A stretch of 64,000 nt of DNA. Source: Diabrotica undecimpunctata (lineage: Eukaryota; Arthropoda; Insecta; Coleoptera; Chrysomelidae). The position numbers and the translations under genes are program-made. The first letter of the stretch is position 1; each line of letters starts with the position of its first letter. Positions 17,861 through 60,335 of this stretch are shown piece by piece. Under the pieces are notes generated by a model. The model was not told where the DNA came from. It made no database searches and saw only the letters and a program-made list of their open reading frames with translations. The stretch spans positions 78,615,141 through 78,679,140 of the forward strand of contig NC_092806.1 in the NCBI RefSeq assembly GCF_040954645.1, written 5' to 3'.

Positions 17861-18033
17861 TTTCCCAGCTTTCTGGGTGGTCCTTCAAAGAAATATATAT
17901 ATAAAGTGAACCTATTTCCCTAAGGAAAAACCTTGTTCCCCAAGGGAAAAAACCAGCGACCTATTACTGGTGCGTGAAACAAAGCCATCAGGACAAAGGT
18001 GTAAGGACAAACACCTACATCTTCGCTGTCATT

Positions 18034-18291: not shown

Positions 18292-18304
18292 TATATCGAT
18301 TATA

Positions 18305-21090: not shown

Positions 21091-21260
21091 GATGCAAGCT
21101 CTGACAGAACAATAACTAAAGAAAATCTTTTGAAAAAAAAAACAAAATTTGGCACTACGCTGGTATGGACACGTTCAAAGGATGGACGACAACAGAATAA
21201 CAAAAAATATTATAATGTGCACCACAGGAAAGACGAAGGAGATGCAGGTCGAGAACTACT
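21091..21260 (+). pseudogene. LINE C-terminal fragment, left arm
   Basis: Encodes LALRWYGHVQRMDDNRITK, the conserved RWxGHVxRM segment near the end of RTE-type ORF2 proteins. Mirror of about 24320-24490. Confidence 0.65.
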
Positions 21261-23295: not shown

Positions 23296-23397
23296 CAAGT
23301 ATTGTCCATTATTATTGTCCATTTCTGTCTTACATGTTTCTATATCAGATATTTTATAGATTTTTTCTATCATTTCATGTACAGCATTTCTGTCTTA

Positions 23398-24319
23398 GAG
23401 TTAGCGTAGCGTATTGTGGTAGTCATGTCCTTACTTGATGACTGAGTTTTTCTTTCATATAACATAATATACTCTATAACTATATATACTCTACAAATGT
23501 ATTTAATTTGATTTTTCTTTGTTAATATACCTAAATTACCTACATATACCATATATTCTTACAGAGACCAATGTTCATTATTCACTATAAAACAATACAT
23601 TACTTGCTCGTCGTAGATAAACTATAGTATGCAAATATTTACGCTTTCCTTTCGCCTTTCATTTAACGTCTCGTGCGTCAAAATCAGATACATAACAACG
23701 AAGATATAATGTAATGGCCGTTTGGCACGTTAGTTGATTTGAACATAATTTATGGATGGTAACCATTTGTTGGTTAGTCTTCGCCATAATTGGATTATAT
23801 CTGAATATTATTGTAAAGTGGGAATTGTTGTAAAGTAATATAGTATGGAACAAATCGAAAAATGGTCATATTGAAGATTTATGTATAGCAGTGAAAGTTT
23901 AGATACGACTCTTGGCTAATTGTAAGTTCAGATGTGATCTGTGTGTATTAGTGAGCGTTCAGCGGAGACTCTTGTCGAATTGTACGTTCAGTGGAGATTG
24001 GTATATAGTAGTGGTCGTTCAGATGTGTCTTGTAGAGAACGTTTAGTGGAGATTTATGTATAGTGGGGGCCGTTCAGATGTGGCTTGTAGAGAACGTTTA
24101 GGTCCTTGTCGGTTTGTGATCATTCAACTTATATCTATGTCGAGTAATATACGTTACTTGTTTGGCCATACTGAAAGAATGGTATACGTACTTTGGTTAG
24201 GCCTCCTCATTATTGGATTATATCTGATTATCATTGTGCAATGGTAATTGTTGTAGATAAAATATAGTATGCAACAAAACGATATCGTATATCAATAATC
24301 ATATTGGTGAGTTGTGTAG
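23398..24319. other. Right-arm non-coding stretch
   Basis: Mirror of 21261-22182; no recognised gene. Confidence 0.5.
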
Positions 24320-24490
24320 AGTAGTTGTTGACCTGCATCTCCTTCGTCTTTCCTGTGGTGCCCATTATAATATTTTTTTGTTATTCTGTTGTCGTCCATC
24401 CTTTGAACGTGTCCATACCAGCGTAGTGCCAAATTTTGTTTTATTTTTCGACAGATTTTCTTTAGTGATTGTTCTGTCAGAGCTTGCATC
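24320..24490 (-). pseudogene. LINE C-terminal fragment, right arm
   Basis: Mirror of 21091-21260. Encodes LALRWYGHVQRMDDNRITKK on the minus strand, preceded by SLKKICRKIKQN. Confidence 0.65.
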
Positions 24491-25793
24491 TGATATACGT
24501 CTGATATGCGTCTGGTATACGTCTGTTGTACGTCTAATATGCGTTATATTGCGTCTTACATACGTCTGCTATTTTCGGTCGCATTCAGAAAGTCATCGAA
24601 AACTCCAGGGAATCGCCTTCGGGGGCATTCTTCAACCATGTGACTGACGGTCTGTCGTTTTACATTAAATTACATTTTATCGAAAATGTTGTACATTTTA
24701 TTATTAATACATTAGACGTTCGTTTGTAATCCTTTATGTAACGTTTTATATTGATTTTTAATTATGTATTCTTATTGTATGCCATACTATAAATAAATAC
24801 GTATGCTATGCGTTAGATATTAGCTAGCTGATGTTTAAGTGTTAACAAACGATAAATTAAGTTATACACCGCTCTGTGGAAGACCTATGTCCAGCAGTGG
24901 ATGTTTAGTCACATTAACGTTGAGAATTAATAATGTACCGCTCTGTGGGAGACCGTAAATAAATGAGCGTTCAGAGGAGACTCATGTATAGTTTTGAACA
25001 TTCAGATGAAACCCTTGTAGAGCAGTAATCATATGGCTGATATCTACAGCAAGTAATATAATATGTTGGTTTATCCGTTTTATCCATTTCGATTACATAT
25101 GAATTGTTTCGAGATATCTAGAGAGAGAGAGGCATTTTTTCAATGAGTTCTGTACGTTAAGTGGAGATCCGTGTATAGTAGTACTTAATCAGAGAAGATA
25201 TTGTTTACAGATGATGTTTTTGGTTTGTTCATACTGTAAGAATGGTATACGTTCTTCGATTAATCATGTGACAGCGTCACCTTGCCTTTCATACATTATT
25301 TCGAGAAAGAAGCGATAGACTAAAGATGTTTGTTTCTCTGTTAGCCTCAGTGACTACTCTCCTTTCGTTCAACGTCTATTATGCTACAGTCCGATAAGTA
25401 GCAACGAAGATCCGATATAGTTCCGTTTTAATAATGTCTTTGTTTTTGTTTTTTGTGATAACATATAGGATATATCCTCCTCTTTCCAACGAGCCTTTGT
25501 ACGTCATGATCGGACCAATAGAAACGGAGATATAACGTAATACCGTTTTGGCAATGTCTTTGCGTTTGTTTTTTGTGTTAACGTATTCGCTACTCCCTCC
25601 TCTTTCATTTAACGTGTTACACATAGTAATCTGATTAATAACAACAGAGATACGATATAGTGCCGTTTTGGCACAGTCTTTGCATTTATTTTTTTGTCTT
25701 AGCATATTCGTTACCACCTCCCCTTTCCCTCGATACCTTGCGCGTTGTTGTACGTTGAACCATTTAGACGTTACGAGCTTAGTGTATATTATT
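24491..25793. repeat. Right-arm degenerate repeats with diverged satellite units
   Basis: Mirror of 19951-21090. About 25460-25740 holds two diverged units of the 121-bp satellite family (CGTCATGATCGGACCAATAG near 25500). About 164 bp of this is missing from the left arm. No gene. Confidence 0.6.
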
Positions 25794-25794
25794 C

Positions 25795-26336
25795 ATGGGA
25801 GAATACCAAGCCGGTTTCAGAAAATATAGATCGACCATAGATCATATCTTTACTCTAAGACAGCTGCTTGAAAAAGGATGGGAATTCAATAGAACTATCC
25901 ATAATCTCTTCATAGATTTCCAGTACGGATAGGTAACAAACTCTCAAAATCTTTCGAAATAAGCAATGACCTGAAACAAGGAGATGCGCTGTCACCTCTC
26001 CTCTTTAATATCATCCTGGAGAAAGTAGTAAGAGCAACACACCTTAAAATAGAATTACTGGCAGTAAATGGACCAAAATTACTACTAGCTTACGCAGATG
26101 ACATTAACATTGTGGGAAACACTGTCACCAATGTGAAGGAGACTTTTAATAAATTGGAGGTAGAGGCAAAGAAAACTGGTTTTAGGGTAAACGAAGAGAA
26201 AACCAAATACATGTGCATCAACAGACAAAAGGGACGAGATAGAATAGGGCAAAATGTGACAATAGACCCATTTAACTTTGAAAGAGTGGAGAGTTTTAAA
26301 TATCTCGGAGTAACAATCACTGCAGGGTTTTGCTAA
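25795..26336 (+). pseudogene. LINE reverse transcriptase fragment, right arm
   Basis: Plus-strand frames read GEYQAGFRKYRSTIDHIF, QLLEKGWEFNRTIHNLFIDF, then after an internal deletion IGNKLSKSFEISNDLKQGDA, LAYADDINIVGN and FKYLGVTI. At least two frame changes. Truncated at both ends; no 3' tail. Confidence 0.8.
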
Positions 26337-26544
26337 CAAATGCACTATTTTTTAACATATTATTTAATATATTTCTGTCTATAATTTCAATTCTTTGATT
26401 AATACTAATTTTATCCATATAATATATGCTTTATAAAAATACGGTTAATATTACACAAAAACTTCTTCAGTCAGAAGATGTGTGTGTTTGGATTTTTGTA
26501 TAAATAACTGTATTAACAATTTTTGGAAATTAGTATAAATCGAG
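26337..26544 (+). promoter_or_regulatory. Upstream region of right MMP copy
   Basis: Contains GTATAAATAAC near 26495, about 40 bp before the ATG, identical in position to the left copy. It is a putative TATA element only. Confidence 0.35.
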
Positions 26545-28058
26545 ATGCTTGTCTGTTTACATGTCTTATTGTTGCTCTCTGTATCTGTGTATGCAGAGAA
26601 TAGCACTCTGGAATATGCTAGTTCTTTTCTTAAACGTTTCGGATATCTAACTACCTCAAGTAATGCTATTTCTAGTATAAATATGGCCTTCGTTGAATTT
26701 CAAGAAAGATACAATCTTCCGGTGACCGGAACATTAAATAATGATACTATGAATATGATTAATAAGCCTAGATGTTCTGTTGGAGACAATAACTATGCAA
26801 TTCATTCGAAGTGGAATAAAACGATTTTACGCTGGTATTTTCCTCAAGCTATTAGTAGTCCTGATTATATAAATCTTGCTGCAGAAGCTTTCGCTAGATG
26901 GGAGAAAATATCTAATTTAAAGTTTAAACGAGTAATAATACCTTCTTCAAAGCCTGATATTACTATAACTGTAGTGCCAAATAATCATAATTTTCTAGCA
27001 AGTTGTCAAGGACCTCTAAATGTTCATTTAATTTCGATGGCCCCGGACAAGTATCGGCCCACGCATACTATCCCAGCGCAAACGGTAAATGTACTGAAAT
27101 TCATCTTGATGCTAATGAACGGTGGTATGTAGGAAATGGCAGAGCTTCTGATGGTGAAGTCAATTTTTTGGCTGTCCTAATGCATGAAATTGGTCATTCC
27201 CTCGGACTGGAACATAGTACTAGTGATTCGTCTATTATGTATGCTTGGTATCACCAAGATGTGCCAAGTTTTGGTGATGATGATAAAAAGGCAATGAGCA
27301 TGCTATATGGACCAAAAACAGTTCCCATACCAACAACAACAACACCAGTTACGCAAACAATTTCACAAACCAGGAGCAATGTACCGAAAACACCTGCAAT
27401 AACAAACATATGTCTAATTCAGTATCCCGATTTCATGTTTCTAGCTACATCTCCACAATTTCCAAATTATCGAATGTACGTTGGATCTGGCCCGTATATA
27501 TGGAAGTTTGATTTAAATGAGATGCACCTTCCAAAATATCCTGAATTAATTACCGATTATCTTCCCAAAGAGTTGAGGTCTACGCACGTTTCACATGTTT
27601 TTCAGAATTCCGAGGGACACTTAGTAACTATAAGCAATAATCAGTATTACGCTGCATCTTTCCCCAATTTAAAAATTCAAAAACGTTTTATGTTTCCTTC
27701 TATACCCGCGAGAACCAAAATAAATGCCTTGTTTCAAACAAACAGCGGCCAGACGTATTTATTATACAATGATAATTCTTATACTGAATTTAACGAAGTT
27801 GGAGATGTCTTAAACCGTGGACCAATAAATTATCTCTTCCCAGGACTACCAGATAAAATAACATCAGCATTCCGCTACACGGATGGGTTTATTTACCTTT
27901 TCCAGAACAATACCTATTATAAGTATAGCGAGTACACACGTAGAGTTGTATTAGCAGGAACGTTTAGCTGGGAACTTTTTGGAATACCCTGCCCTGAAGA
28001 AGGTCTATTAAAACAATTAAAAACTTTGTTAAACAAAATTGTAACTATATACGAATAA
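26545..28058 (+). pseudogene. Matrix metalloproteinase, right copy, full span but frameshifted
   Basis: Same signal peptide, prodomain and cysteine switch (PRCSVGDN) as the left copy from ATG 26545. At about 27012 one base is absent relative to the left copy, so the first frame ends wrongly at 27132 while the catalytic part continues in another frame (27003-28058). That frame has HEIGHSLGLEH, Met-turn SIMY, a TTTP-rich linker and a four-bladed hemopexin domain. The domain is bracketed by the usual two cysteines (NICLIQYPDF and IPCPEE). The C-terminus has no membrane or GPI signal, suggesting a secreted MMP ancestor. Intronless. AATAAA overlaps the stop codon. Confidence 0.88.
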
Positions 28059-28440: not shown

Positions 28441-28519
28441 TCTTAAGCACTGTACGGAAAAGAAGAAGAAGAATGTTCATACTGAACGTTGACATGGCTT
28501 TTGTGTCACCAACGCTTTC

Positions 28520-29262
28520 ATTTGACACCTCATACGTCAAAATCAGGCCAATAGCAACGAAGATACGTTTTAGCGCCCATTTGGCAATACTGCCATCTTT
28601 GTTTTTTGTGTCAAAGTATTCTCCGTCTCCTCCCCGTTCCAACGAGCCCTCGTACGTCACGATCGGACCAATAGAAACAAAGATACCTAATAATGCCCTT
28701 TCGGCATGCTCCGATGCGCACAGCACATACTGCGTTCAACCCCATTTTTCATCCCCTTTCCAACGACTCCTTGTACGTCATAATCGGACCAATAGCAACG
28801 AAGATACGTTTTAGCGCCCATTTGGCAATGCTGCCATCTTTGTTTTTTGTGTCAAAGTATTCCCCGTCTCCTTCCCGTTCCAACGAGCCCTCGTACGTCA
28901 CGATCGGACCAATAGAAACAAAGATATGACGTAATGACCTTTTGGCATCATCCTATGCGTACGGCACATATTTTATTCAACCCCATTTTCTATCCCCTTT
29001 CCAACGAGCCCTCGTACGTCACGATCGGACCAATAGAAACAAAGATATGACGTAATGCCCTTTCGGCATGCTCCGATGCACACATCACATACTGCGTTCA
29101 ACCCCATTTTTCATCCCCTTTCCAACGAGCCCTCGTACGTCACGATCGGACCAATAGAAACGAAGATACCTAATAATGCCCTTTCGGCATGCTCCGATGC
29201 GCACATCACATACTGCGTTCAACCTTATTTTTCATCCCCTTTCCAACGAGCCTTCGTACGTC
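28520..29262 (-). repeat. 121-bp satellite, right block
   Basis: About six units with anchors near 28540, 28660, 28781, 28901, 29022 and 29142, spacing 120-121 bp. Two unit types are mixed: one with GCATGCTCCGATGCGCAC, one with GGCAATACTGCCATCTTTG. Oriented opposite to the left blocks. Confidence 0.92.
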
Positions 29263-29321
29263 ATCCTACGTTAAGCCGTTTGGAACTTACGACCGGGGGT
29301 TGCGATTTTAGGGGTTGCGAT
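29263..29321 (-). repeat. Outer terminus of the satellite/palindrome
   Basis: TAAGCCGTTTGGAACTTACG followed by two to three copies of GGGGTTGCGATTTTA. The same terminus in reverse complement lies at 12209-12267. Confidence 0.8.
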
Positions 29322-29626: not shown

Positions 29627-29893
29627 TATCGTCGGTATACTGCGAAAACCAGGTAAATGACAAATGTTAAAATATTGAGGTAAGTATACCAAAATTCTCA
29701 GCTTTTTCCGCTCTACATACAGGTAAAACCAAATAAATGATACGACTTACCATTCAGCAGATAATTTGTGTAATAAACAAATAAGTTACACCTAATCAAC
29801 TTTTCGTTTTCAAATAAAACAATATATCGCTACTTACTTCCATAAAATTAAAGTTCTGTTGCATGTAAAACAAAGTAAGCCCACATATATTAT

Positions 29894-30234
29894 TGTTACG
29901 ATAAATATACTGGCCTAAATATATGATGACTAATAATTCTGTTTTGTTGTAGAAATTTGGCATAGGATCTAGATTCAAATTATGGTGAATCCTCCAACTA
30001 GATGTTCTCGACTATTCTAGTATATCAGTATTTCGTATATAAATACAACATTTTTATATGGAGGGACAGTTAATTCTGACGACCCGCGGCCGCGATATTT
30101 ATTGTTACGCTCGCCTAAATAAATTATGTGTATTATTCGTTTAAATAAATTGATATAAATTATTGTGCCTTTTAATGAATTAAGACAAGAACAAGACATT
30201 ATAAATTAAATAGACATAAATAAATATCATTTCA
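29894..30234 (+). repeat. Gypsy copy 1, 5' LTR
   Basis: 341 bp, TG...CA ends. Contains ACCCGCGGCCGCG near 30080 and a TATATAAATACAACA promoter-like word near 30037. Unrelated, apart from the first and a few inner bases, to the LTR of copy 2. Confidence 0.95.
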
Positions 30235-30235
30235 T

Positions 30236-30252
30236 TGGTGTCGGAATAGTGG
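30236..30252 (+). other. Primer-binding site of Gypsy copy 1
   Basis: TGGTGTCGGAATAGTGG directly after the 5' LTR, the position and TGG start expected for a tRNA primer site. Copy 2 has TGGTGTCAGAGTGAGAT instead. The tRNA species was not determined. Confidence 0.7.
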
Positions 30253-30467: not shown

Positions 30468-33400
30468 CGATATTTCGAAAGTTTCTTCTAATGTAGCCAA
30501 AGTTTCTGGTGATGTAGCCAAAGTTTCTGGTGATGTAGCCAAAGTTTCCGGCGACATCGCATCATTGGAGAACAAAGTATCCGGCGACATCGCTTCTTTA
30601 GAAAGCAAAGTTTCTAACGAGATTTCTTCTCTGGAAAGCAAAGTTTCTGCTAACATCTCTAAAGTCACTTCAGAGATATCTGCTCTTGACGATAGAGTGT
30701 CTTCGTTAAAAAACCAAGTTGCTGCCGATATGTTGGCCTTCGAAGAAAAGATATGGAAAGAGATGGAAAGGAAGATGGAGGAAACAGGGACAGCAGAGAG
30801 AGGTAACAATCCGATTACAGTGGAGATAAAAGAAGACGAGACGAAATGTAAGTTGGAGACACGGCCGAAATTTGAAGGAAGTGGAGGTTCTATTCATGTT
30901 AAAGTCCCAACTTTCGACGGAAAATCATCATGGAACAACTACATGAAACAGTTCGAATCAGCCGCAAGAGCAAATGGATGGTCTGAAAAAGAAAAGGCTG
31001 TAAACCTGACTATCGCTCTTCGAGGAGATGCCTTAGATGTGCTTCAGACCATCGCCGTAGAGGAGACCGATGATTTCGAACAACTGAAGAAGAGGTTAAA
31101 TATGCGATATGGCCACGAACATTTGGAGCATGTATATCAGTCACAGCTTAAAAATCGTAGACAGAAGAAAGATGAGGCTCTTCAAGAATATGAGGTAGAT
31201 ATTGCCAGATTAGTACGATATGCTTATCCAACAGCTCCCGAAGACATGATGGAAAAATTGGCCGTTCAAACATTTATTGATGGTCTTCGTGATCATGAAA
31301 TGCAGAGAACACTGCGATTAGCTCGTCACAAGACGCTGGTTGATGTCCTATCCGCCGCCCTCGAATACGAGTCAGCTACGCAGGCCTCTGGCGGGTACAG
31401 TAAAGTTAGGACTGTAAAAGAGGAAGGAGATGAAGATAAACTTGACCAGCTCGTTAATATGATGAAAATTATTACATGCAAGAAAACGAAGACCATAAAA
31501 TCAAGAAACTCACCATCAGGAAAACCAGAACGAGTCGGCTTTAGGGGAGCAGCTTCGACCCGGAACTTTTCCAAAGACCCTCTTATACTAATAGCTTCTT
31601 TGAAATGTCGTGAAGATAGTGTATATGTAGATGGAGAAATAAATGGTAAAAGACATACGTTGTTGGTGGATACGGGAGCGACCAGAACCATTATACGCCC
31701 AACAGTTATAAACAGCCGTAAGAAACTATTACCAACGAGGTTGCGACTTCGGACCGCTACAGGTGAAAATGCCAACATTCATGGAGAAATCCAGGTACAA
31801 TTGGGAATTGGAGCAGAAAAGTTTGTCCATACTGTTATAGTTGCTGACATCGAAGAGGATGTTATATTAGGAATGGACGTAATGAATATGCATGGATTCC
31901 AATTGGATTTTAAGAATAAGGTAATCAAAGTTGGCAACGAGGAGGTATTTCTCCATCCACATAACGACAACACTGTGCAAGCAGCCATTACAGAAGATAC
32001 AGTCGTGCCTGCGAGAAGCGAAACGATCATAGTAGCGCGACTACAGGGAATTGTAGACGAAGGGAGACCTGTAATGATGGAGCCTTGGAACCACGACGAT
32101 GAGGTTGGCCGTGGAATCATAATTGGAAAGGAATTGGTGACTTCGGCTAAGGAAATTCCTGTGAGACTTATCAATGTCAACGACTACCCAGTGACCATAA
32201 AGAAAGAGACAAAAGTAGGAACTTGTGTACCTGTGACATCCATAATCCGTCAGGCGACAACATCTGATAATTCCAACGATAAATTCGACCAAATGGTTGC
32301 AGTTGCAGGACAGTCTCTAAATCAGATGGAGAAAAGGAAATTAAGGGAATTTCTTCGGCAGTATCGTGATATTTTCGTACCGAAAGGAGGAAAGACGGGA
32401 AGAACTACGGTTGTTAAGCATAAAATTGATACTGGTAATGCTAAGCCAATTCGTCAAACAGCTCGACGATTACCACAGGCGAAAAGAGAGGAAGCTGAAA
32501 CGATTGTTCAGGAAATGAAGAAAGACGGGGTGATAGAACCTTCTACGAGCCCATGGGTCTCTCCGGTGGTCCTAGTTAAGAAGAAAGACGGAACGACGAG
32601 GTTCTGTGTGGATTACCGTTTGCTGAACAACGTTACCAAGAAAGATAGTTATCCTCTGCCTCGGATCGATGACACATTGGACACATTGGCTGGAAGTAAA
32701 TTGTTTTCTACTTTGGATTTGAAGTCTGGATACTGGCAGGTAGAAATGGACCCAGTAGATAAAGAAAAGACAGCCTTCACCACAGGATCTGGATTGTGGC
32801 AATTCAACGTTATGCCATTTGGACTCTGTAATGCTCCTGCGACATTTGAGAGGCTTATGGAAAATGTGTTGAGAGGGTTATCTTGGAAAACATGCCTGGT
32901 TTATTTGGATGACATAATCGTCTTGGGAGAGACATTCGCAGATCATTTGAGGAATTTAGAAAACGTTTTTAATCGACTTAAAGCTGCCCAATTGATGCTA
33001 AACCCCAAGAAGTGCCAGCTATTTCAAGGTAGAGTCAATTATCTGGGTCATATAGTCAGTAAAGAAGGAGTGGCCGTGGATAAGGGAAAAATCGATTCCA
33101 TTAAGGAATGGCCAAAACCAACTGACAAACATCAAGTGAGAAGTTTTCTTGGACTATGTACTTACTACCGGAGGTTTATTAAGAAGTTTGCAGATATCGC
33201 TAAGCCATTAACGCGACTTACAAAGGAAGCAAGAGAATACCGCTGGGATATAGACTGCCAAAATGCCTTTGAAACGTTGAAAAAGCATTTAATAACAGCA
33301 CCAATTTTAGGGTATCCACTGCCAGAAGGAGAGTTCATCTTAGATACGGATGCAAGTAATGTGGGAATTGGAGGAGTGCTGTCTCAGATACAAGGAGGAC

Positions 33401-35757
33401 AGGAACGAGTTCTCGGATATTTTAGTAAAGTTCTTTCAAAACCTGAACGGAATTATTGCGTCACGAGAAGAGAACTTCTGGCAGTAGTGAAATCAGTAGA
33501 GCACTTCTATCAATACCTCTATGGCAGAAAGTTTCTAATCCGAACCGACCATGCCGCCCTTAAGTGGTTGATGCAGTTTAAGAATCCAGAGGGTCAGATA
33601 GCCAGGTGGATCGAACGACTCCAAGAATACGATTTTAAGATTGAGCACCGGGCCGGAGTTAGCCATAGAAACGCTGATTCTCTTTCCAGAAGGCCATGCC
33701 CAGCAGAGTGTTCCCACTGCAACAAAACGGAATCCAAGGAAGCAGCAGTGCTAAGAACGACGATTGTCAACGACGACTGGACGCCTACTAAGATCAGGGA
33801 AGAACAAGAGAGAGATCCGGTTATACAGAAAATCCGAAAATGGAAAGAGGAAAACCGTCGACCACCTTGGCAGGAAATATCAAACCTATGCTCAGTAGTT
33901 AAGACGTATTGGGCCCAGTGGGACTCATTTATCATCGAAGATGGCTTGCTCAAACGAGTCCTGGAAAATGATGACGGTTCGGAGAAGAGAAGACAGTTGG
34001 TGATCCCAAAGAGCAGAATAGCCGAAGTACTTCGTCAGTTACACGACAGTCCATCGGGAGGGCATTTTGGTGTAAGGAAAACCCTTCAGCGAATTCGGGA
34101 ACGGTTTTATTGGATGAACAGTTCCGACGATGTAAAAGACTGGTGTAAGAAATGTACTATTTGTGCCACGAGTAACGGGCCTTACCGAAAAAGGAGAGCT
34201 CCTATGAGACATTATAATGTTGGAAGCCCGTTTGAAAGAATAGCTTTGGATATCGCTGGGCCATTTCCAGAAAGTGAAAATGGAGGCAAGTACATGTTGG
34301 TAGTAATGGATTACTTTACTAAGTGGGTCGAGATTTATGCACTTCCAGACCAGAAGGCCGCCACCGTTGCAGATAAGTTGATCCAAGAATATATCAGCCG
34401 ATTTGGAGTGCCTTTGGAGATACATAGTGACCAAGGCAGGAACTTCGAAAGCGATATATTCCAAGGAATATGTGATAGACTAGGCATGAAGAAAACAAGA
34501 ACTACAGCATATCATCCGCAATCTGATGGTATGGTAGAACGGATGAATAGGACAGTCGGCAAGTATTTGACAAAGATGGTGTCCGATCATCAGCGAGACT
34601 GGGACCAATACCTTCCGTTCTTCACAATGGCCTACAGATCTGCTGTTAACGAATCAACAGGCCAGACACCAGCCAGAGTCCTATTCGGACGCGAAATGCG
34701 ACTACCTTGTGATCTAGAATTTGGGTGTCGACCTGGAGAAGATGTAGCAGGTGAAGATTATGTGACCGAATTACGAAGGAGAATGGACGATGTACATGAG
34801 TTGGTCCGTTCCCACCTTCAGATCGCTAGCGACCGAATGAAGAAACTGTACGATACACAAGCCGAAAAGGGTTGCTTTAAGAAGAACGACAAGGTCTGGC
34901 TCTATAACCCCAAGAAGCGAAAAGGTTGTTCTCCCAAATTGCAGCAGTTTTGGGAAGGCCCATACCTAATTATGGAGAAGATCAACGATGTCATCTACCG
35001 AATAAGCAAGATTCCGAGGGGAAAGCCGATGATAGTACACCATAACCGGCTGGCGTCTTTCGAAGGTGACCACGACGTAGATAAAGAAGTGGAGGTAAAC
35101 CAAGTCCAAGACGTGTCTGACCTCACGTTTGAGGAATTCATGGGTGCCTATGGAGGTACCGGTAAAGCAAGACATGGTGTTACCACTGAAGAAAAGCAAG
35201 ATCTACTCGCGCTCCCCGATGACTACTCGCTGGCCCTTACCATCCCGGCCAGTATCAAAGACGCACCAGGGTTGGCATCCGTCTTTCGAAGGAAGTTTGG
35301 TCGAGTTGCAGAACTTCAATGCCAAGTGCCAGCTCCCGGTAAAACCTTGAAACTCCAAGATGCATCACGTTACCTTTTCTACCTGGTAACAAAAGACACT
35401 GCCCGTGACCAACCTACCTACCGATATGTATGGGAAGCCTTACTTCAATTGAGAGAGCACGTACTAGAGTCCGACGTGCAAAAGTTAGCCATGCCAAACT
35501 TGGAGTGCCGCCAATTAGATTGGAGGGTTATCCGAAATATGGTGGAGGAGATCTTCAAAGACACCGAAGTCCAGGTGTTAGTCTGTTGCAATCCGCTAAG
35601 TACCTTGTGCGGAGAGAAAACCGTCCCTTGTCATTTTTATACAACTGGAAGTTGTAAAAGAGGGTCCAGTTGCCGATACCAGCATACAGTTCCGGTTCCA
35701 GTCCCGACAAGGTTCCAGGAGGAACCATCTTTTAAGAGGGGGGCAATGTTACGATAA
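30424..35757 (+). CDS. Gypsy gag-pol polyprotein with macrodomain-like and CCCH C-terminus
   Basis: In-frame ATG at 30430, about 1775 residues, no internal stop. Order: coiled-coil-like KVSGD/SLENK repeats (about 10-90); retrotransposon Gag core (FDGKSSWNNYMKQFESAARA); aspartic protease DTG (about 414); reverse transcriptase YLDD (about 825); RNase H (DTDASNVGIG, about 973); integrase HHCC finger and D-D-E (LDIAG, HSDQG, MVERMN, about 1200-1370). About 1596-1720 resembles the OARD1/TARG1 macrodomain: SLAL...LASVFRRKFGRVAELQ, RYLFYLVTK, QPTY, LAMPNLEC. A finger CHFYTTGSCKRGSSCRYQH follows (1734-1752). A 65-bp deletion near 31500 removed the CCHC knuckle and put gag and pol into one frame. No env, no chromodomain. 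Confidence 0.93.
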   Translation: MKMLSISKLENKVSDDISKVSSNVAKVSGDVAKVSGDVAKVSGDIASLENKVSGDIASLESKVSNEISSLESKVSANISKVTSEISALDDRVSSLKNQVAADMLAFEEKIWKEMERKMEETGTAERGNNPITVEIKEDETKCKLETRPKFEGSGGSIHVKVPTFDGKSSWNNYMKQFESAARANGWSEKEKAVNLTIALRGDALDVLQTIAVEETDDFEQLKKRLNMRYGHEHLEHVYQSQLKNRRQKKDEALQEYEVDIARLVRYAYPTAPEDMMEKLAVQTFIDGLRDHEMQRTLRLARHKTLVDVLSAALEYESATQASGGYSKVRTVKEEGDEDKLDQLVNMMKIITCKKTKTIKSRNSPSGKPERVGFRGAASTRNFSKDPLILIASLKCREDSVYVDGEINGKRHTLLVDTGATRTIIRPTVINSRKKLLPTRLRLRTATGENANIHGEIQVQLGIGAEKFVHTVIVADIEEDVILGMDVMNMHGFQLDFKNKVIKVGNEEVFLHPHNDNTVQAAITEDTVVPARSETIIVARLQGIVDEGRPVMMEPWNHDDEVGRGIIIGKELVTSAKEIPVRLINVNDYPVTIKKETKVGTCVPVTSIIRQATTSDNSNDKFDQMVAVAGQSLNQMEKRKLREFLRQYRDIFVPKGGKTGRTTVVKHKIDTGNAKPIRQTARRLPQAKREEAETIVQEMKKDGVIEPSTSPWVSPVVLVKKKDGTTRFCVDYRLLNNVTKKDSYPLPRIDDTLDTLAGSKLFSTLDLKSGYWQVEMDPVDKEKTAFTTGSGLWQFNVMPFGLCNAPATFERLMENVLRGLSWKTCLVYLDDIIVLGETFADHLRNLENVFNRLKAAQLMLNPKKCQLFQGRVNYLGHIVSKEGVAVDKGKIDSIKEWPKPTDKHQVRSFLGLCTYYRRFIKKFADIAKPLTRLTKEAREYRWDIDCQNAFETLKKHLITAPILGYPLPEGEFILDTDASNVGIGGVLSQIQGGQERVLGYFSKVLSKPERNYCVTRRELLAVVKSVEHFYQYLYGRKFLIRTDHAALKWLMQFKNPEGQIARWIERLQEYDFKIEHRAGVSHRNADSLSRRPCPAECSHCNKTESKEAAVLRTTIVNDDWTPTKIREEQERDPVIQKIRKWKEENRRPPWQEISNLCSVVKTYWAQWDSFIIEDGLLKRVLENDDGSEKRRQLVIPKSRIAEVLRQLHDSPSGGHFGVRKTLQRIRERFYWMNSSDDVKDWCKKCTICATSNGPYRKRRAPMRHYNVGSPFERIALDIAGPFPESENGGKYMLVVMDYFTKWVEIYALPDQKAATVADKLIQEYISRFGVPLEIHSDQGRNFESDIFQGICDRLGMKKTRTTAYHPQSDGMVERMNRTVGKYLTKMVSDHQRDWDQYLPFFTMAYRSAVNESTGQTPARVLFGREMRLPCDLEFGCRPGEDVAGEDYVTELRRRMDDVHELVRSHLQIASDRMKKLYDTQAEKGCFKKNDKVWLYNPKKRKGCSPKLQQFWEGPYLIMEKINDVIYRISKIPRGKPMIVHHNRLASFEGDHDVDKEVEVNQVQDVSDLTFEEFMGAYGGTGKARHGVTTEEKQDLLALPDDYSLALTIPASIKDAPGLASVFRRKFGRVAELQCQVPAPGKTLKLQDASRYLFYLVTKDTARDQPTYRYVWEALLQLREHVLESDVQKLAMPNLECRQLDWRVIRNMVEEIFKDTEVQVLVCCNPLSTLCGEKTVPCHFYTTGSCKRGSSCRYQHTVPVPVPTRFQEEPSFKRGAMLR
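35209..35592 (+). other. Macrodomain-like region (OARD1/TARG1 type) in Gypsy pol, copy 1
   Basis: From ALPDDYSLALTIPASI to EVQVLVCC. The order of blocks matches the OARD1 macrodomain from its second strand to its end: SLA-start, LAxxFRRKFG, RYLFYLVTK, QPTY..V..AL..LREH, LAMP, LDW..I..M.EEIF, V.VLV. Known: OARD1 removes ADP-ribose from Glu/Asp using a Lys (in YLITK) and an Asp in a GCGLD loop. Seen: the Lys of YLVTK is kept, but GCGLD is replaced by ECRQLD-type sequence and the GAGIA loop by APGLA. Inferred: the fold is retained, and binding or hydrolysis is uncertain. Confidence 0.75.
35735..35745 (+). other. Polypurine tract of Gypsy copy 1
   Basis: AAGAGGGGGGC immediately before the 3' LTR, the expected plus-strand primer site; identical in copy 2. 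Confidence 0.75.
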
Positions 35758-36087
35758 ATATACTGGCCTAAATATATGATGACTAATAATTCTGTTTTGT
35801 TGTAGAAATTTGGCGAAGGATCTAGATTCAAATTATGGTGAATCCTCCAACTAGATGTTCTCGACTATTCTAGTATATCAGGATTTCGTATATAAATACA
35901 ACATTTTTATATGGAGGGACAGTTAATTCTGACGACCCGCGGCCGCGATATTTATTGTTACGCTCGCCTAAATAAATTATGTGTATTATTCGTTTAAATA
36001 AATTGATATAAATTATTGTGCCTTTTAATGAATTAAGACAAGAACAAGACATTATAAATTAAATAGACATAAATAAATATCATTTCA
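35747..36087 (+). repeat. Gypsy copy 1, 3' LTR
   Basis: 341 bp. Matches the 5' LTR except near GGCGAAGG versus GGCATAGG and CAGGATT versus CAGTATT. Confidence 0.95.
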
Positions 36088-36091
36088 TTAT

Positions 36092-38413
36092 TATGCCGGA
36101 CAACAATATATTTCTACTACTGCAAACCATATTCAGTAAAAAGGTGATAAGTGTCTTTAATACATTTTACGTGTATGATTTATTAAAATTTCTCTTCCAT
36201 ATCGACTAGTAAAAACCTTTAAGTACACTTACTGCATTCTACCTGAAAACGGGTTGAGTTAAAATTTAGAAATGGTTACTAAGCTAAACCCATAAATGAT
36301 CTTTATAACACATACACAGATAGAATAACTGAAGACAACAGTTCAATTGTTGATGATTCTGAGAACAATATAGCCTCAATGATGGAATCCATTTTTGATA
36401 TTGACTTTTCAGATGTAGACCCCACATATCAGCCAAGTGAAGAGGGATCGCTCTCTCTAGGAAGTGTATATGATTTACACACTTTGATAGCCTAAATAAT
36501 GAGAAAAAAAATACTGAAATAGGTGCACCCACGAACAATTTAGTGTCAACTGAAATAGCTAGTTGGATATTAAATCTACTTCTTGACAAAGCATGGAAAG
36601 ACGTACGTCCACTAAAACGTTGGAGAAAAGCTAACCCCAAAGATTGGGTAATAAATGTCGCAAAAAGAAGGCGTGCTGAGGGTTTGCCTTATAAGATAAA
36701 AAAGACCATAGACCAGCAATGCCAAAACCAGTTAATTGTTCCGAGTGCTTTTACAAATGTGCCAGTTATGTCAGCGAAGATAACAGACAAAGACTATGTC
36801 GTGATTATTGAAAGTTAGAATATATAGGCCAGAAACATTTTCTTATTGCACGTATTAAAACGGAGCCACCAAAGAGAGTCGTTGCAGTCCGTTGAAGTTT
36901 AAAAAACCACGTGCATTTTCCAAAAAGTGTTACTTTTCTTTGAATGGTCAAGACATACAGGTATGTGAGAAATTTCTTTGTAAGACACTTTGTAATCAGA
37001 GTCGTTAATACAAGATGTTGTAAGAAAAACTGATTCTAGGCTGTTATGCAGATACGGATAAAAGAGGCAAGCATACACCGCCAAATAAAACAAGCAGTAA
37101 AACCCGAAAAATCGTGAAGGCTCATATTGAGTCTTTTCCAACCATGGGCCCACATTATATTCGCCAAAGTTCAAAGCGTAGATATTTGGACAAAAATTTA
37201 AGTATAAGAAAAATGTACCAACTTTTTATAAATCACTATGTGCAGAAGAAACTGGAAGGTGTTAGCGAAATTACATATCAAAGAATATTTTCTAACGACT
37301 ATAATTTAAGCTTTTTTGTTGCTAAAAAAGATCAATGTTTAGTTTGTAATAAATATGATAGGGCTAATCCAACTGACAAATCGGATTTAGAAGACAGTTA
37401 CAGAGAACATCAGAAAAGAAAAGAAGTATGTAATCTTAAAAAACAAAATGATAAGAAAAGATCTAATGAACAACGGAATTTTGTTTCAGTTACTTTCGAT
37501 CTACAGGCCGTACTACAGATTCCAAGTGGATTGACTGGAAAACTATATTATTCTCGAAAATTATGTGTCTACAATTTGTGTGTATATGAAGCCGCATTAC
37601 CAAATGCAGCTTACTGTCTTGACTGGTCAGAAATTAACGGTAGACAAGGAAGTTCTGAAATAGAAAGCATTATACTCCACTACTTATCAAAATGTGTTCC
37701 AGAATATGTAAGTGAAATAAGTTTATTTTCTGATACCTGCAGAGGACAGAATCCGTTTAAATATTATTGAACACAAATTTTTAGATTCTGGACATTCCTA
37801 TATGGAAGTTGACTCTATGCAGAGTAGTAACGAAACCGCTAAAAAACACAGATCTATCTATGGGATGCCAGATTGCTTGTCTGTTTTTCAAAATGCAAGA
37901 GGAAATAGAAATATTAAGGTTGATGATAAAAAAGTATGTATAGAACCATACAAAGGTAAAGAATTTAAATAGTACGACTTTTATGATTTAAAAAATGTGT
38001 CACACACTTTAATTAAAAACCGGACAAAAGACCAAAACGGCGAAAAAATAATGTGGTTGAAGATAAAAAGAATGAGATTCGTGAAAGGAGAGACAAACAG
38101 AATCTATTTTAATTATGACATGTTAACAAGCTTCAATTATTTCCTTACTGATACTGCACGGCAGTCAACAAGAAAAAAGCACGCCAAGTTATCAACTAAT
38201 TCAAGCAATCTTGAAGAACTTAAGCGACTTTATGATGGACATTTGAAAATTAGCATAGCAAAAAAGAGAGATTTGGTACAGCTATAAGCTAGTAAGGGAG
38301 TGATACCGGAGGAATATCGCGGGTGGTATCGTAATTTGAAAACGGGAAATGATGTAACAAACATCTTGCCAGAGCCTGCTTTCAGTGACGAATCGGACGA
38401 GGAATCCTCATAA
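36092..38413 (+). pseudogene. Transposase of the split DNA transposon (DDE-like), decayed
   Basis: Blocks in changing frames: an acidic N-terminal piece with DVDPTYQPSEE (near 36415); DVRPLKRWRKANPKDW (36600); a long open block at 37114-37770. That block has AKKDQCLVCNKYDRA, FVSVTFDLQAVLQIPSGLTG, YYSRKLCVYNLCVYE and SLFSDTCRGQNPF. Then come FLDSGHSYMEVDSMQ (37785), WLKIKRMRF (38050) and GVIPEEYRGWYRNL near 38300. I recognise the family as widespread in insects. The D in FDLQ, D in FSDTC and E in MEVDS are likely the DDE triad (inference). Several frameshifts and stops make it inactive. Confidence 0.75.
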
Positions 38414-54007: not shown

Positions 54008-54398
54008 TGTTACGATAATTATCCTGGCCTAAAATAACCGTACATATTATGACTAATGCTGTTCTGTTTTAGATTTTACGAGAGTATTCTATTAGCCGGC
54101 AGAAATTTACCTGAAGGGACCTTCCAGAAACGGTCGAGCCGATGTAAAAATACCCGTTTGCCTTACCGTTATAATTTCGCCGCTAATCGAGAAGGCTGTT
54201 CGATGATTCTAGCGTAAAGGCAATGGCATATATAAAGGACATTTTATTTGGAAGGAACAGTTAATTCTCAACACCCGCGCTCGCGAATTTGTTACGTACG
54301 GATATAATAAATTATTGTCAGATAAGTTAATATAAATAAAGAAATAAATTAAATCCGTAAGTGTTATAAATATTGAACCTTTTAATAAATTCACAACA
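54008..54398 (+). repeat. Gypsy copy 2, 5' LTR
   Basis: 391 bp starting TGTTACGATAATTATCCTGG and ending CACAACA. Contains ATATATAAAGGACATTTTAT, a TATA-like word, near 54228. Little similarity to the copy 1 LTR. Confidence 0.93.
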
Positions 54399-54400
54399 AA

Positions 54401-54417
54401 TGGTGTCAGAGTGAGAT
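54401..54417 (+). other. Primer-binding site of Gypsy copy 2
   Basis: TGGTGTCAGAGTGAGAT two bases after the LTR. Differs from copy 1 after the first seven bases. Confidence 0.65.
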
Positions 54418-54475
54418 CGAACATAAATTAGACTTATAATAATAATACAAGTGTGATATAAAATAAATTGTGAAA

Positions 54476-55726
54476 ATGGCTACGATTTATGAGCTGACAG
54501 TGACTAATTTAAGAAGACATCTTGAAGACAGAGAATTAGCTTCTACCGGAAAAAAGGCTGAGTTAGTCCAACGACTAAAGAACGCTTTGCTAGAAGAAGG
54601 ACTAGATCCAGAGACTTATATATTTGAAGATGCTGTCCTCTCGTCGATTTCCAAAGTTTCTGGTGATATCGCATCATTAGAGAACAAAGTTTCTGGCGAT
54701 ATTTCGAAAGTTTCCGGCGACATCGCTTCTTTAGAAAGCAAAGTTTCTAACGAGATTTCTTCTCTGGAAAGCAAAGTTTCTGCTAACATCTCTAAAGTCA
54801 CTTCTGAGATGTCTGCTCTTGACGATAGAGTGTCTTCGTTAAAAAACCAAGTTGCTGCCGATATGTTGGCCTTCGAAGAAAAGATATGGAAAGAGATGGA
54901 AAGGAAGATGGAGGAAACAGGGACAGCAGAGAGAGGAAACAATCCAATTAGAGTAGAGATAAAAGAAGACGAGACGAAATGTAAGTTGGAAACACGGCCG
55001 AAATTTGAAGGAAGTGGAAGTTCTGTGCATGTCAAAGTCCCAACTTTCGACGGAAAATCGTCATGGAACAACTACATGAAACAGTTCGAATCAGCTGCAA
55101 GAGCGAATGGATGGTCTGAAAAAGAAAAGGCTATAAACCTGACTATCGCTCTTCGAGGAGATGCCTTAGATGTGCTTCAGACCATAGCAGTAGAGGAGAC
55201 CGATGATTTCGAACAACTGAAGAAGAGGTTAAATATGCGATATGGCCACGAACATTTGGAGCATGTATATCAGTCGCAGCTTAAAAATCGTAGACAGAAG
55301 AAAGATGAGGCTCTTCAAGAATATGAGGTAGATATTGCCAGATTAGTACGATATGCTTATCCAACAGCTCCCGAAGACATGATGGAAAAATTGGCCGTTC
55401 AAACGTTTATTGATGGTCTTCGTGATCATGAAATGCAGAGAACACTACGATTAGCTCGTCACAAGACGCTGGTTGATGTCTTATCCGCCGCCCTCGAATA
55501 CGAGTCAGCTACGCAGGCCTCTGGCGGGTACAGTAAAGTTAGGACTGTAAAAGAGGAAGGAGATGAAGATAAACTTGACCAGCTCGTTAATATGATGAAA
55601 AGCATGACATATAAGAAAACGAAGACCATCAGATGCTGGAATTGTGGCGAAATAGGACACGTACGAAGCTCCTGTAAACACCCTAGGTACGACGCAAATC
55701 AAGAAACTCACCATCAGGAAAACTAG
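54476..55726 (+). CDS. Gypsy Gag with SAP domain and CCHC knuckle (copy 2)
   Basis: ATG 54476, 416 residues. SAP motif at about 4-40 (ELTVTNLRRHLEDRELASTG). Repeated KVSGDI/SLENK units about 58-125, probably a coiled coil. Gag core with SSWNNYMKQFESAARANGWS and LRGDALDVLQTIA about 180-290. C-terminal zinc knuckle CWNCGEIGHVRSSC near 388-401. The pol frame is open from about 55687, one base back (-1) relative to gag, giving a 40-bp overlap consistent with -1 frameshifting. The overlap contains GGAAAAC but no canonical slippery heptamer. Confidence 0.9.
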   Translation: MATIYELTVTNLRRHLEDRELASTGKKAELVQRLKNALLEEGLDPETYIFEDAVLSSISKVSGDIASLENKVSGDISKVSGDIASLESKVSNEISSLESKVSANISKVTSEMSALDDRVSSLKNQVAADMLAFEEKIWKEMERKMEETGTAERGNNPIRVEIKEDETKCKLETRPKFEGSGSSVHVKVPTFDGKSSWNNYMKQFESAARANGWSEKEKAINLTIALRGDALDVLQTIAVEETDDFEQLKKRLNMRYGHEHLEHVYQSQLKNRRQKKDEALQEYEVDIARLVRYAYPTAPEDMMEKLAVQTFIDGLRDHEMQRTLRLARHKTLVDVLSAALEYESATQASGGYSKVRTVKEEGDEDKLDQLVNMMKSMTYKKTKTIRCWNCGEIGHVRSSCKHPRYDANQETHHQEN

Positions 55727-58700
55727 AACGGGTCAGCCTTAGGGGGGCAGCTTCGACCCAAAACTTTTCCAAAGACCCTCTCATACTAATAGCTTCTTTG
55801 AAATGTCGTGAAGATAGTGTATATGTAGAAGGAGAAATAAATGGTAAAAGACATACGTTGTTGGTGGATACCGGAGCGACCAGAACCATTATACGTCCAA
55901 CAGTTATAAACAGCCGTAAGAAACTGTTACCAACGAGGTTGCGACTTCGGACCGCTACAGGTGAAAATGCCAATATTCATGGAGAAATCCAGATACAATT
56001 GGGAATTGGAGCAGAAAAGTTCGTCCATACTGTTATAGTTGCTGACATCGAAGAGGATGTTATATTAGGAATGGACGTAATGAATATGCATGGATTCCAA
56101 TTGGATTTTAAGAATAAGGTAATCAAAGTTGGCAACGAGGAGGTATTTCTCCATCCACATAATGACAACACTGTGCAAGCAGCCATTACAGAAGATACAG
56201 TCATGCCTGCGAGAAGCGAAACGATCATAGTAGCGCGGCTACAGGGAATTGTGGACGAAGGGAGACCTGTTATGATGGAGCCTTGGAACCACGACGATGA
56301 GGTTGGCCGTGGAATCATAATTGGAAAGGAATTGGTGACTTCGGCTAAAGAAATTCCTGTGAGACTTATCAATGTCAACGACTACCCAGTGACCATAAAG
56401 AAAGAGACAAAAGTAGGAACTTGTGTACCTGTGACATCCATAATCCGTCAGGCGACAACATCTGATAATTCCAACGACAAATTCGACCAAATGGTTGCAG
56501 TTGCAGGACAGTCTCTAAATCAGATGGAGAAAAGGAAATTAAGGGAATTTCTGCGGCAGTATCGTGATATTTTCGTACCGAAAGGAGGAAAGACGGGAAG
56601 AACTACCGTTGTTAAGCATAAAATTGATACTGGTAATGCTAAGCCAATTCGTCAAACAGCTCGACGATTACCACAGGCGAAGAGAGAGGAAGCTGAAACG
56701 ATTGTTCAGGAAATGAAGAAAGACGGGGTGATAGAACCTTCTACGAGCCCATGGGTCTCTCCGGTGGTCCTGGTTAAGAAGAAAGACGGAACGACGAGGT
56801 TCTGTGTGGATTACCGTTTGCTGAACAACGTTACCAAGAAAGATAGTTATCCTCTGCCTCGGATCGATGACACATTGGACACATTGGCTGGAAGTAAATT
56901 GTTTTCTACTTTAGATTTGAAGTCTGGATACTGGCAGGTAGAAATGGACCCAGTCGATAAAGAAAAGACAGCCTTCACCACAGGATCTGGATTGTGGCAA
57001 TTCAACGTTATGCCATTTGGACTTTGTAATGCTCCTGCGACATTTGAGAGGCTTATGGAAAATGTGTTGAGAGGGTTATCTTGGAAAACATGCCTGGTTT
57101 ATTTAGATGACATAATCGTCTTGGGGGAGACATTCGAAGATCATTTGAGGAATTTAGAAAACGTTTTTAATCGACTTAAAGCTGCCCAATTGATGCTAAA
57201 CCCCAAGAAGTGCCAGCTATTTCAAGGTAAAGTCAATTATCTGGGTCATATAGTCAGTAAAGAAGGAGTGGCCGTGGATAAGGGAAAAATCGATTCCATT
57301 AAGGAATGGCCAAAACCAACTGACAAACATCAAGTGAGAAGTTTTCTTGGACTATGTACTTACTACCGGAGGTTTATTAAGAAGTTTGCAGATATCGCTA
57401 AGCCATTAAGGCGACTTACAGAGGAAGCAAGAGAATACCGCTGGGATACAGACTGCCAAAATGCCTTTGAGACCTTAAAAAAACATCTAATAACAGCACC
57501 AATTTTAGGGTATCCACTGCCAGAAGGAGAGTTCATCTTAGATACGGATGCAAGTAATGTGGGAATTGGAGGAGTGCTGTCTCAGATTCAAGGAGGACAG
57601 GAACGAGTCCTCGGATATTTTAGTAAAGTTCTTTCAAAACCTGAGCGGAATTATTGCGTCACGAGAAGAGAACTTCTAGCAGTAGTTAAATCAGTAGAGC
57701 ACTTCTATCAATACCTCTATGGCAGAAAGTTTCTAATCCGAACCGACCATGCCGCCCTTAAGTGGTTGATGCAGTTTAAGAATCCAGAGGGTCAGATAGC
57801 CAGGTGGATCGAACGACTCCAAGAATACGATTTTAAGATTGAGCACCGGGCCGGAGTTAGCCACAGAAACGCTGATTCTCTTTCCAGAAGGCCATGCCCA
57901 GCAGAGTGTTCCCACTGCAACAAAACGGAATCCTAGGAAGCAGCAGTGCTAAGAACGACGATTGTCAACGACGACTGGACGCCTACTAAGATAAGGGCAG
58001 AACAAGAGAGAGATCCAGTTATACAGAAAATCCGAAAATGGAAAGAGGAAAACCGTCGACCACCTTGGCAGGAAATATCAAACCTATGCTCAGTAGTTAA
58101 GACGTATTGGGCCCAGTGGGACTCATTTATCATCGAAGATGGCTTGCTCAAACGAGTCCTGGAAAATGATGACGGTTCAGAGAAAAGAAGACAGTTGGTG
58201 ATCCCAAAGAGCAGAATAGCCGAAGTACTTCGTCAGTTACACGACAGTCCATCGGGAGGGCATTTTGGTGTAAGGAAAACCCTTCAGCGAATTCGGGAAC
58301 GGTTTTATTGGATGAACAGTTCCGACGACGTAAAAGACTGGTGTAAGAAATGTACTATTTGTGCTACGAGTAACGGGCCTCACCGGAAAAGGAGAGCTCC
58401 TATGAGACAATATAATGTTGGAAGCCCGTTTGAAAGAATAGCTTTGGACATTGCAGGGCCATTTCCATAAACTGAAAATGGGGGCAAGTACATGTTGGTA
58501 GTAATGGATTACTTCACTAAGTGGGTCGAGATTTACGCACTTCCAGACCAGAAGGCCGCCACCGTTGCAGATAAGTTGATCCAAGAATATATCAGCCGAT
58601 TTGGAGTGCCTTTGGAGATCCATAGTGACCAAGGCAGGAACTTTGAAAGTGATCTATTCCAAGGAATATGTGATAGACTAGGCATGAAGAAAACAAGAAC

Positions 58701-59955
58701 TACCGCGTATCATCCGCAATCGGATGGTATGGTAGAACGAATGAATAGGACAGTTGGCAAGTATTTGACAAAGATGGTGTCCGATCATCAGCGAGACTGG
58801 GACCAATACCTTCCGTTCTTCACAATGGCCTACAGATCTGCTGTTAACGAATCAACGGGCCAGACACCAGCCAGAGTCCTATTCGGACGCGAAATGCGAC
58901 TACCTTGTGATCTAGAATTTGGGTGTCGACCTGGAGAAGATGTAGCAGGTGAAGATTATGTGATCGAATTACGAAGAAGAATGGACGATGTACATGAGTT
59001 GGTCCGTTCCCACCTTCAGATCGCTAGCGACCGAATGAAGAAACGGTACGATACACAAGCCGAAAAGGGTTGCTTTAAGAAGAACGACAAAGTATGGCTG
59101 TATAATCCCAAGAAGCGAAAAGGTTGTTCTCCCAAATTGCAGCAGCTTTGGGAAGGTCCATACCTCATCATGGAGAAGATCAACGATGTCATCTACCGAA
59201 TAAGCAAGATTCCGAGGGGAAAGCCGATGATAGTACACCATAACCGGCTGGCGTCTTTCGAAGGTGACCACGACGTAGATGAAGAAGTGGAAGTAAACCA
59301 AGTCCAAGACGTGTCTGACCTCACGTTTGAGGAATTCATGGGTGCCTATGGAGGTACCGGTAAAGCAAGACATGGTGTTACCACTGAAGAAAAGCAAGAT
59401 CTACTCGCGCTCCCCGATGACTACTCGCTGGCCCTTACCATCCCGGCCAGTATCAAAGACGCACCAGGGTTGGCATCCGTCTTTCGAAGGAAGTTTGGTC
59501 GAGTTGCAGAACTTCAATGCCAGGTGCCAGCTCCCGGTAAAACCTTGAAACTCCAAGATGCATCACGTTACCTTTTCTACCTGGTAACAAAAGACACTGC
59601 CTGTGACCAACCTACCTACCGAGATGTGTGGGAAGCCTTACTTCAATTGAGAGAGCACGTACTAGAGTCCGACGTGCAAAAGTTAGCCATGCCAAAGTTG
59701 GAGTGCCGCCAATTAGATTGGAGGGTTATCCGAAATATGGTGGAGGAGATCTTTAAAGACACCGAAGTCCAGGTGTTAGTCTGTTGCAATCCGCATAGTT
59801 ACTGGTGCGGAGAGAAAACCGTCCCTTGTCATTTTTATACAACTGGAAGTTGTAAAAGAGGGTCCAGTTGCCGATACCAGCATACAGTTCCGGTTCCAGT
59901 CCCGACAAGGTTCCAGGAGGAACCATCTTTTAAGAGGGGGGCAATGTTACGATAA
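55687..59955 (+). pseudogene. Gypsy Pol with macrodomain-like and CCCH C-terminus (copy 2), two stops
   Basis: Frame opens after a TAG near 55684 and is read to 59955, with TAG at 57934-57936 (between RNase H and integrase) and TAA at 58468-58470 (inside the integrase core). Copy 1 has Lys and Glu codons at these places. Content matches copy 1: DTG protease, RT with YLDD, RNase H, HHCC/DDE integrase, macrodomain-like region at about 59407-59790 and CCCH finger at about 59827-59883. Differences in the last part are few (for example MPKLEC for MPNLEC). Confidence 0.92.
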
Positions 59956-60335
59956 TTATCCTGGCCTAAAATAACCGTACATATTATGACTAATGCTGTT
60001 CTGTTTTAGATTTTACGAGAGTATTCTATTAGCCGGCAGAAATTTACCTGAAGGGACCTTCCAGAAACGGTCGAGCCGATGTAAAAATACCCGTTTGCCT
60101 TACCGTTATAATTTCGCCGCTAATCGAGAAGGCTGTTCGATGATTCTAGCGTAAAGGCAATGGCATATATAAAGGACATTTTATTTGGAAGGAACAGTTA
60201 ATTCTCAACACCCGCGCTCGCGAATTTGTTACGTACGGATATAATAAATTATTGTCAGATAAGTTAATATAAATAAAGAAATAAATTAAATCCGTAAGTG
60301 TTATAAATATTGAACCTTTTAATAAATTCACAACG
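59945..60335 (+). repeat. Gypsy copy 2, 3' LTR
   Basis: 391 bp, matching 54008-54398. Last base G instead of A, directly before the ATAT duplication. Confidence 0.93.

Follow-up and report, generated by a model that had tools for sequence, protein, structure and literature searches.

A TARG1-type macrodomain homolog behind the integrase of a beetle Ty3/Gypsy retrotransposon

TARG1, also known as OARD1 or C6orf130, is an ALC1-like hydrolase with a catalytic dyad of Lys84 and residue 125 (PMC7050489). Residue 125 is Glu in that review and Asp in the human OARD1 chain, so Asp is used here, and the K84/D125 numbering follows the cited passages and counting along the OARD1 row. A homolog of this domain was found in a 64,000-nucleotide stretch of the genome of the beetle Diabrotica undecimpunctata (contig NC_092806.1, positions 78,615,141-78,679,140; the whole stretch is called the window), within the polyprotein of a Ty3/Gypsy long terminal repeat (LTR) retrotransposon. 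It shares with TARG1 the predicted fold, the length, 34% identity across the aligned domain, and the catalytic lysine, and its relatives also share the Asp of the GLD loop. Unlike TARG1, it is fused between an integrase and a CCCH zinc finger, and the GLD loop has been lost in the lineage represented in the window.

Chromoviruses, Gypsy elements with a chromodomain behind the integrase that is thought to target integration, likewise carry an accessory domain on the polyprotein, but the domain and the mark are different. The macrodomains of alphavirus nsP3, coronavirus Mac1, and rubella virus also place a macro fold in the polyprotein of a replicating element, and binding by viral macrodomains may matter without hydrolysis (PMC12632316). 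The DarG macrodomain belongs to the same ALC1-like class and has the catalytic lysine, but it is a bacterial antitoxin and only 20-25% identical. Among retroelements, fish epsilon-like retroviruses occasionally carry macro-domain open reading frames (ORFs) (PMC4977317, citing Basta et al. 2009). These endogenous viruses resemble the present case as retroelements with a macro domain; they are vertebrate elements with the domain in additional ORFs, whereas here it lies in a Ty3/Gypsy element, inside the gag-pol frame after the integrase. Accessory domains of retroelements listed in an excerpt of PMC6338049 include a chromodomain, an exonuclease, and a DNA methylase, and that excerpt names no macro domain, the letters "macro" appearing there once, within "macrophage". 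Among the matches listed from open-access titles and abstract beginnings, no Gypsy element with a macrodomain is described, subscription papers and repeat databases being outside this scope. An earlier sequence-only reading of the window, which knew of no such Gypsy element, is not contradicted by this literature, but the fish retroviruses are a precedent for retroelements with a macrodomain.

The macrodomain and its catalytic positions

By homology and position, the tail of the Gypsy polyprotein is a TARG1 (OARD1)-type macrodomain between the integrase and the CCCH finger. Searched in isolation, the domain matched human OARD1 over its residues 3-125 (E=1.7e-19, 73 bits), whereas the best non-OARD1 chain, 5m31 (DarG), reached only E=0.7, so the resemblance to OARD1 is not due to chance. 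AlphaFold, from input alignments that contained OARD1 rows, predicted a macro fold in which model residues 1-140 (35173-35592) align to TARG1 residues 11-152. Sequence, predicted structure, and relatives thus agree with the sequence-only reading, which had placed an OARD1/TARG1-like macrodomain after the integrase. The blocks it had named (SLA, FRRKFG, RYLFYLVTK, QPTY, LAMP, LDW, and EEIF) lie in frame where it put them and are present in a second copy of the element, as it had said; its end at 35592 holds, while its start at 35209 falls slightly inside the structural match. Two other identities were rejected. One was a known Gypsy C-terminal domain, but Integrase_p58_C and SH3_Tf2-1 match upstream, separate from the macrodomain. 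The other was a host gene, but the domain lies within an LTR-bounded gag-pol frame with many copies.

The catalytic positions were scored in six retroelement rows against 12 OARD1 rows, at 59 columns invariant in OARD1, of which the retroelement rows keep 31, 31, 32, 36, 36, and 39. The lysine corresponding to TARG1 K84 is kept in all six rows, so the earlier claim that the catalytic Lys survives was correct. D125 is present in the rows from Aromia, Brassicogethes, and the protein P0205, and lost from both window copies and the relative P0003, in which the loop is two residues shorter; the altered GCGLD loop had also been recognized before (IGCGLDR to LECRQ in the window copies). The window domain and P0003 therefore have the lysine of TARG1/ALC1-like hydrolases and not the Asp of the GLD loop.

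Relatives, genome copies, and selection

Searches for other proteins with the same tail, which the sequence-only reading had proposed, were productive. The tail region retrieved 10 proteins, namely P0003 (67% identity) and nine from Aromia moschata (42-46%). When an Aromia domain was the query, the best 120 of 194 matches were all named Aromia. The tail occurs in at least 121 Aromia proteins; in these 121, loose regular expressions detected both the lysine and GLD motifs in 115, the CCCH pattern in 105, an integrase C-terminal motif in 118, and both of the last two in 102. In a profile search, the 120 matches listed of 3966 were mostly vertebrate OARD1, together with P0128 (Aromia), P0155 (Brassicogethes aeneus), and P0205. 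The gene models of the last two are short (224 and 223 residues) and lack an integrase; they appear to be retroelement tails, judging from a common lead-in (KARYGVTREE...DLF) and the CCCH end. Every named relative of the tail in the listed rows comes from a beetle (Aromia or Brassicogethes), which by itself would point to a beetle as the likely host. By Pfam, P0003 combines reverse transcriptase, RNase H, integrase, p58_C, and CCCH in one protein, and P0117 (Aromia) has integrase zinc-binding and p58_C domains and a sub-threshold Macro match (18.8 bits). Many Aromia relatives (e.g., P0004 and P0109) also have an N-terminal SAP domain (PF02037), which Pfam did not detect in the window element.

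The macrodomain is kept across lineages yet evolves faster than the integrase, as identities to P0003 are 67% for the domain and 82% for the integrase end, and those to Aromia 43% and 59%; the CCCH finger is 61% identical to that of P0003 and 50% to that of Aromia. A tree was built from 10 retroelement rows (two window copies, P0003, five Aromia, P0155, and P0205) and 23 OARD1 rows, one of them a fragment cut from a Mytilus protein; P0110 was omitted because its start was not found by pattern. One branch separates the retroelement from the OARD1 rows (support 100/100), and the window copies cluster with P0003 within the retroelement rows (100/99).

Across the 1.74-Gb assembly, 107 places were scored from 10,892 first-look candidates. 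Identity to the 385-residue tail is 97-100% in every one of the 107; 104 of them have no stop there, and the other three contain one or two. Variants were counted in 104 rows, comprising 103 of these places, chosen by protein score and thus enriched in conserved copies, and window copy 2, not so chosen. The lysine is present in all 104, the LECRQLDW loop in 103, and GLD in none, and the frame across the macrodomain is open in 103. Macrodomain codon variants in at least five copies comprise five synonymous changes and one non-synonymous change (ratio 0.06 against site counts, p=0.003), those in two to four copies four of each, and single-copy variants 21 synonymous and 29 non-synonymous changes and one stop (ratio 0.41). 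The integrase part has 18 synonymous and four non-synonymous common variants (ratio 0.06), and 22 synonymous and 28 non-synonymous single-copy variants with three stops. Synonymous to non-synonymous counts in the CCCH stretch are 0:3 among common variants, 3:0 in two to four copies, and 4:9 in single copies. Constraint on the macrodomain within this genome is suggestive only. As a separate observation, synonymous differences among 24 copies (34600-35757) are 0.075 in the integrase part and fall to 0.016 in the macrodomain, as would be expected had recombination among lineages spread the 3' part.

The two window copies and their surroundings

Copy 1 is a genuine, complete-looking Ty3/Gypsy LTR element. 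Its single frame has the order gag, protease, reverse transcriptase, RNase H, and integrase by Pfam, although the protease match is weak (1e-4, under the Pfam cut-off); its LTRs, 343 nt each, are 99.1% identical; and a 5-nt target-site duplication, ATTAT, flanks it at 29889-29893 and 36090-36094. The TTG start of the ORF is mechanical, with an ATG at 30430. The stop lies 11 nt into the 3' LTR, leaving no space for env, and inspection of the ORFs and LTR boundary of copy 1 found no env ORF of the errantivirus type. Coordinates are collected in Table 1.

Table 1. Features of the two element copies in the window
Feature	Position	Strand	Basis
Copy 1, 5' LTR, 343 nt, TGTTACG...CATT	29894..30236	+	LTR pair comparison
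Copy 1, gag-pol ORF, single frame, 1777 aa	30424..35757	+	ORF list
Copy 1, gag (PF03732 Retrotrans_gag)	31009..31293	+	Pfam, E=3e-8
Copy 1, reverse transcriptase (PF00078; portion within searched piece)	32575..32997	+	Pfam, E=4.3e-30
Copy 1, RNase H (PF17919/PF17917)	33244..33630	+	Pfam
Copy 1, integrase zinc-binding (PF17921) and core (PF00665; portion within searched piece)	34003..34491	+	Pfam
Copy 1, integrase C-terminal domain (PF22938 Integrase_p58_C)	34957..35055	+	E=2.4e-13
Copy 1, TARG1/OARD1-type macrodomain (core of the finding)	35173..35592	+	Sequence search, alignment, predicted structure
Copy 1, codon of conserved lysine (TARG1 K84)	35392..35394	+	Alignment
Copy 1, shortened loop LECRQ replacing TARG1 IGCGLDR, D125 position gone	35500..35514	+	Alignment
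Copy 1, CCCH zinc finger (PF00642)	35617..35685	+	E=1.9e-6
Copy 1, 3' LTR	35747..36089	+	LTR pair comparison
Copy 2, 5' LTR, 390 nt	54008..54397	+	LTR pair comparison
Copy 2, coding part	54398..59955	+	ORF list and nucleotide comparison with copy 1
Copy 2, macrodomain	59371..59790	+	Sequence comparison
Copy 2, CCCH zinc finger	59815..59883	+	Pfam
Copy 2, 3' LTR	59945..60334	+	LTR pair comparison

The coding part of copy 2 is 97.65% identical to that of copy 1 over 4260 ungapped nt, and its 390-nt LTRs are 100% identical to each other. Within its RNase H-integrase part, two in-frame stops break the frame, with ORFs ending at 57936 and 58470, and indels disrupt its gag part. The LTR length and the sequence 3' of the 5' LTR are unlike those of copy 1, and copy 2 (54008-60334) is perhaps a young insertion from a second LTR subfamily. 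The integrase zinc-core part differs between the copies by 23 synonymous and seven non-synonymous changes.

Elsewhere in the window, the arms of an inverted duplication (18304-22280 and 23300-27439) are 97.7-98.7% identical, and both contain a matrix-metalloproteinase-like gene (PF00413), present in one as a 299-aa ORF (18300-19199, minus strand) and in the other split over two frames, with a hemopexin match (26545-28058, plus strand). A repeat of ~120-nt units lies on both sides of the duplication (12208-12596, 18028-18278, and 28515-29321). Two non-LTR retrotransposons, each encoding an endonuclease and a reverse transcriptase, occupy 13496-17535, preceded by a PRE_C2HC ORF, and 47541-50456. 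A DUF659 match under the cut-off lies at 9388-10179 (minus strand); DUF659 occurs in hAT-type transposases. A scan of the window with Rfam returned no match at gathering score.

Eraser, reader, or passenger

The preferred reading, which is given an even chance, is that a captured TARG1-type domain has been kept in a Gypsy lineage of insects, or at least of beetles, ancestrally as an eraser and in the window lineage as a reader of ADP-ribose. An ancestor of the lineage would have captured the domain once from an animal gene and then maintained it between the integrase and the CCCH finger, itself a putative RNA binder; a single capture is the simplest account and not proven, because the OARD1 rows of the tree include no insect OARD1. 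The ancestral module was probably an eraser of ADP-ribose that acted close to the integration complex, on proteins or on the ends of nucleic acids, because Aromia, Brassicogethes, and P0205 retain both TARG1 catalytic positions; alternatively, it may have acted against ADP-ribose-dependent silencing. The window lineage, with the Lys kept and the Asp-bearing loop shortened, would most likely be a reader, predicted to bind ADP-ribose and to have lost hydrolysis, which might anchor the integrase complex to chromatin or proteins that carry ADP-ribose, by analogy with the chromodomain. The earlier suggestion that the domain may bind rather than hydrolyze fits this lineage, but not the Aromia, Brassicogethes, and P0205 forms. 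The functions it proposed, help with integration or counteraction of host ADP-ribosylation, are still hypotheses. A narrower version, in which the captured TARG1 domain, formerly an eraser, steers the Gypsy integrase to sites of host DNA damage or PARP activity, is a tentative and rather doubtful extension.

Host biology gives two reasons for such a module, because ADP-ribosylation contributes to retroelement silencing and TARG1 acts on DNA-linked ADP-ribose. In mammals, SIRT6 modifies KAP1 at L1, which ties ADP-ribosylation to retroelement silencing (PMC4695847). In PARP-1-null flies, five of eight significantly changed mobile elements were up, and nine of 10 further non-significant risers were gypsy-superfamily elements (PMC7712786). 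TARG1 reverses thymidine-linked DNA ADP-ribosylation in a K84-dependent manner (PMC8501950). For a reader, chikungunya macrodomain catalytic mutants are relevant: a preprint suggests selection for binding, not hydrolysis, with replication in mosquito cells unaffected and mixed effects in mosquitoes (PMC12632316).

Several observations weigh against the captured-domain reading. The window domain retains just 31 of the 59 OARD1-invariant positions, and neither it nor the P0003 piece matches the Pfam Macro model. That model matches all three short relatives submitted, two above the cut-off. The predicted fold match is not independent, given the OARD1 rows in the AlphaFold alignments, and the tree, having no insect OARD1 row, does not place the donor. 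The changes in mobile elements in PARP-1-null flies may come about indirectly (PMC7712786). Regarding purifying selection, also proposed earlier as a check, the 5:1 count in common variants is favorable, but the ratio is already low (0.41) among single-copy variants, which points to bias from the choice of copies by protein score or to mutation bias; common and single variants differ in the integrase (p=0.003), but not significantly in the macrodomain (p=0.068; p=0.12 for variants in at least two copies). The CCCH stretch gives no clear selection signal, and the changes between copies 1 and 2 in the domain are three synonymous and three non-synonymous.

These points leave room for a structural passenger, a folded C-terminal extension serving stability, spacing, or packaging, or in slow decay, with no ADP-ribose ligand here. 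The loss of 28 of the 59 invariant positions, the missing Pfam Macro match, the only suggestive signal of selection, and evolution faster than that of the integrase end would all suit it, but K84 in 6/6 rows and 104/104 copies, a frame open through the domain in 103/104 copies (chosen by protein score), and both catalytic positions in other beetle lineages make it an improbable account, if the best of the rivals. Slightly less probable still is a window-lineage domain that remains an ADP-ribosylhydrolase, using the Lys with another acidic residue (e.g., in LEC or QLDW) and removing host-placed ADP-ribose from the element's proteins or DNA. ALC1-like hydrolases are mechanistically diverse, with SCO6735 lacking both residues (PMC7050489), and TARG1 activity on thymidine-linked ADP-ribose depends on K84 (PMC8501950), the residue present in every copy sampled. 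Against hydrolysis stand the D125 loop, two residues shorter and devoid of Asp in the window and P0003, and changes at C33, S35, D37, M40, and G121, all OARD1-invariant.

An origin in an insect virus or in a DarG-type gene of bacteria, not in animal OARD1, is very unlikely. Viral proteins with similar predicted folds exist, and the best in the viral library, Kadipiro virus VP8 (BFVD A0A8E0KJF2), has a TARG1-like predicted fold at OARD1-level identity (34%, E=1.3e-14). Kadipiro virus is an insect-borne double-stranded RNA virus, and VP8 is perhaps another macrodomain capture, by an insect virus. Viral contigs searched with the domain alignment, and prokaryote contigs searched with the window domain, gave no relative. 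Despite the missing Pfam Macro match, there is a negligible probability that the resemblance is fortuitous or that a Gypsy C-terminal domain already known was misread as a macrodomain, given the E-value from the domain alone, the two relatives over the Pfam cut-off, and the predicted TARG1 fold.

The captured-domain reading suggests that such elements read or erase host damage and silencing signals. If true, it would link the integration machinery of mobile elements to ADP-ribosylation, which marks DNA breaks, silencing, and antiviral defense. The family is abundant, with at least 107 near-identical tails in one genome and 121 proteins in Aromia, and the presence of catalytic-looking and loop-lacking forms within it makes the question of eraser or reader directly testable.

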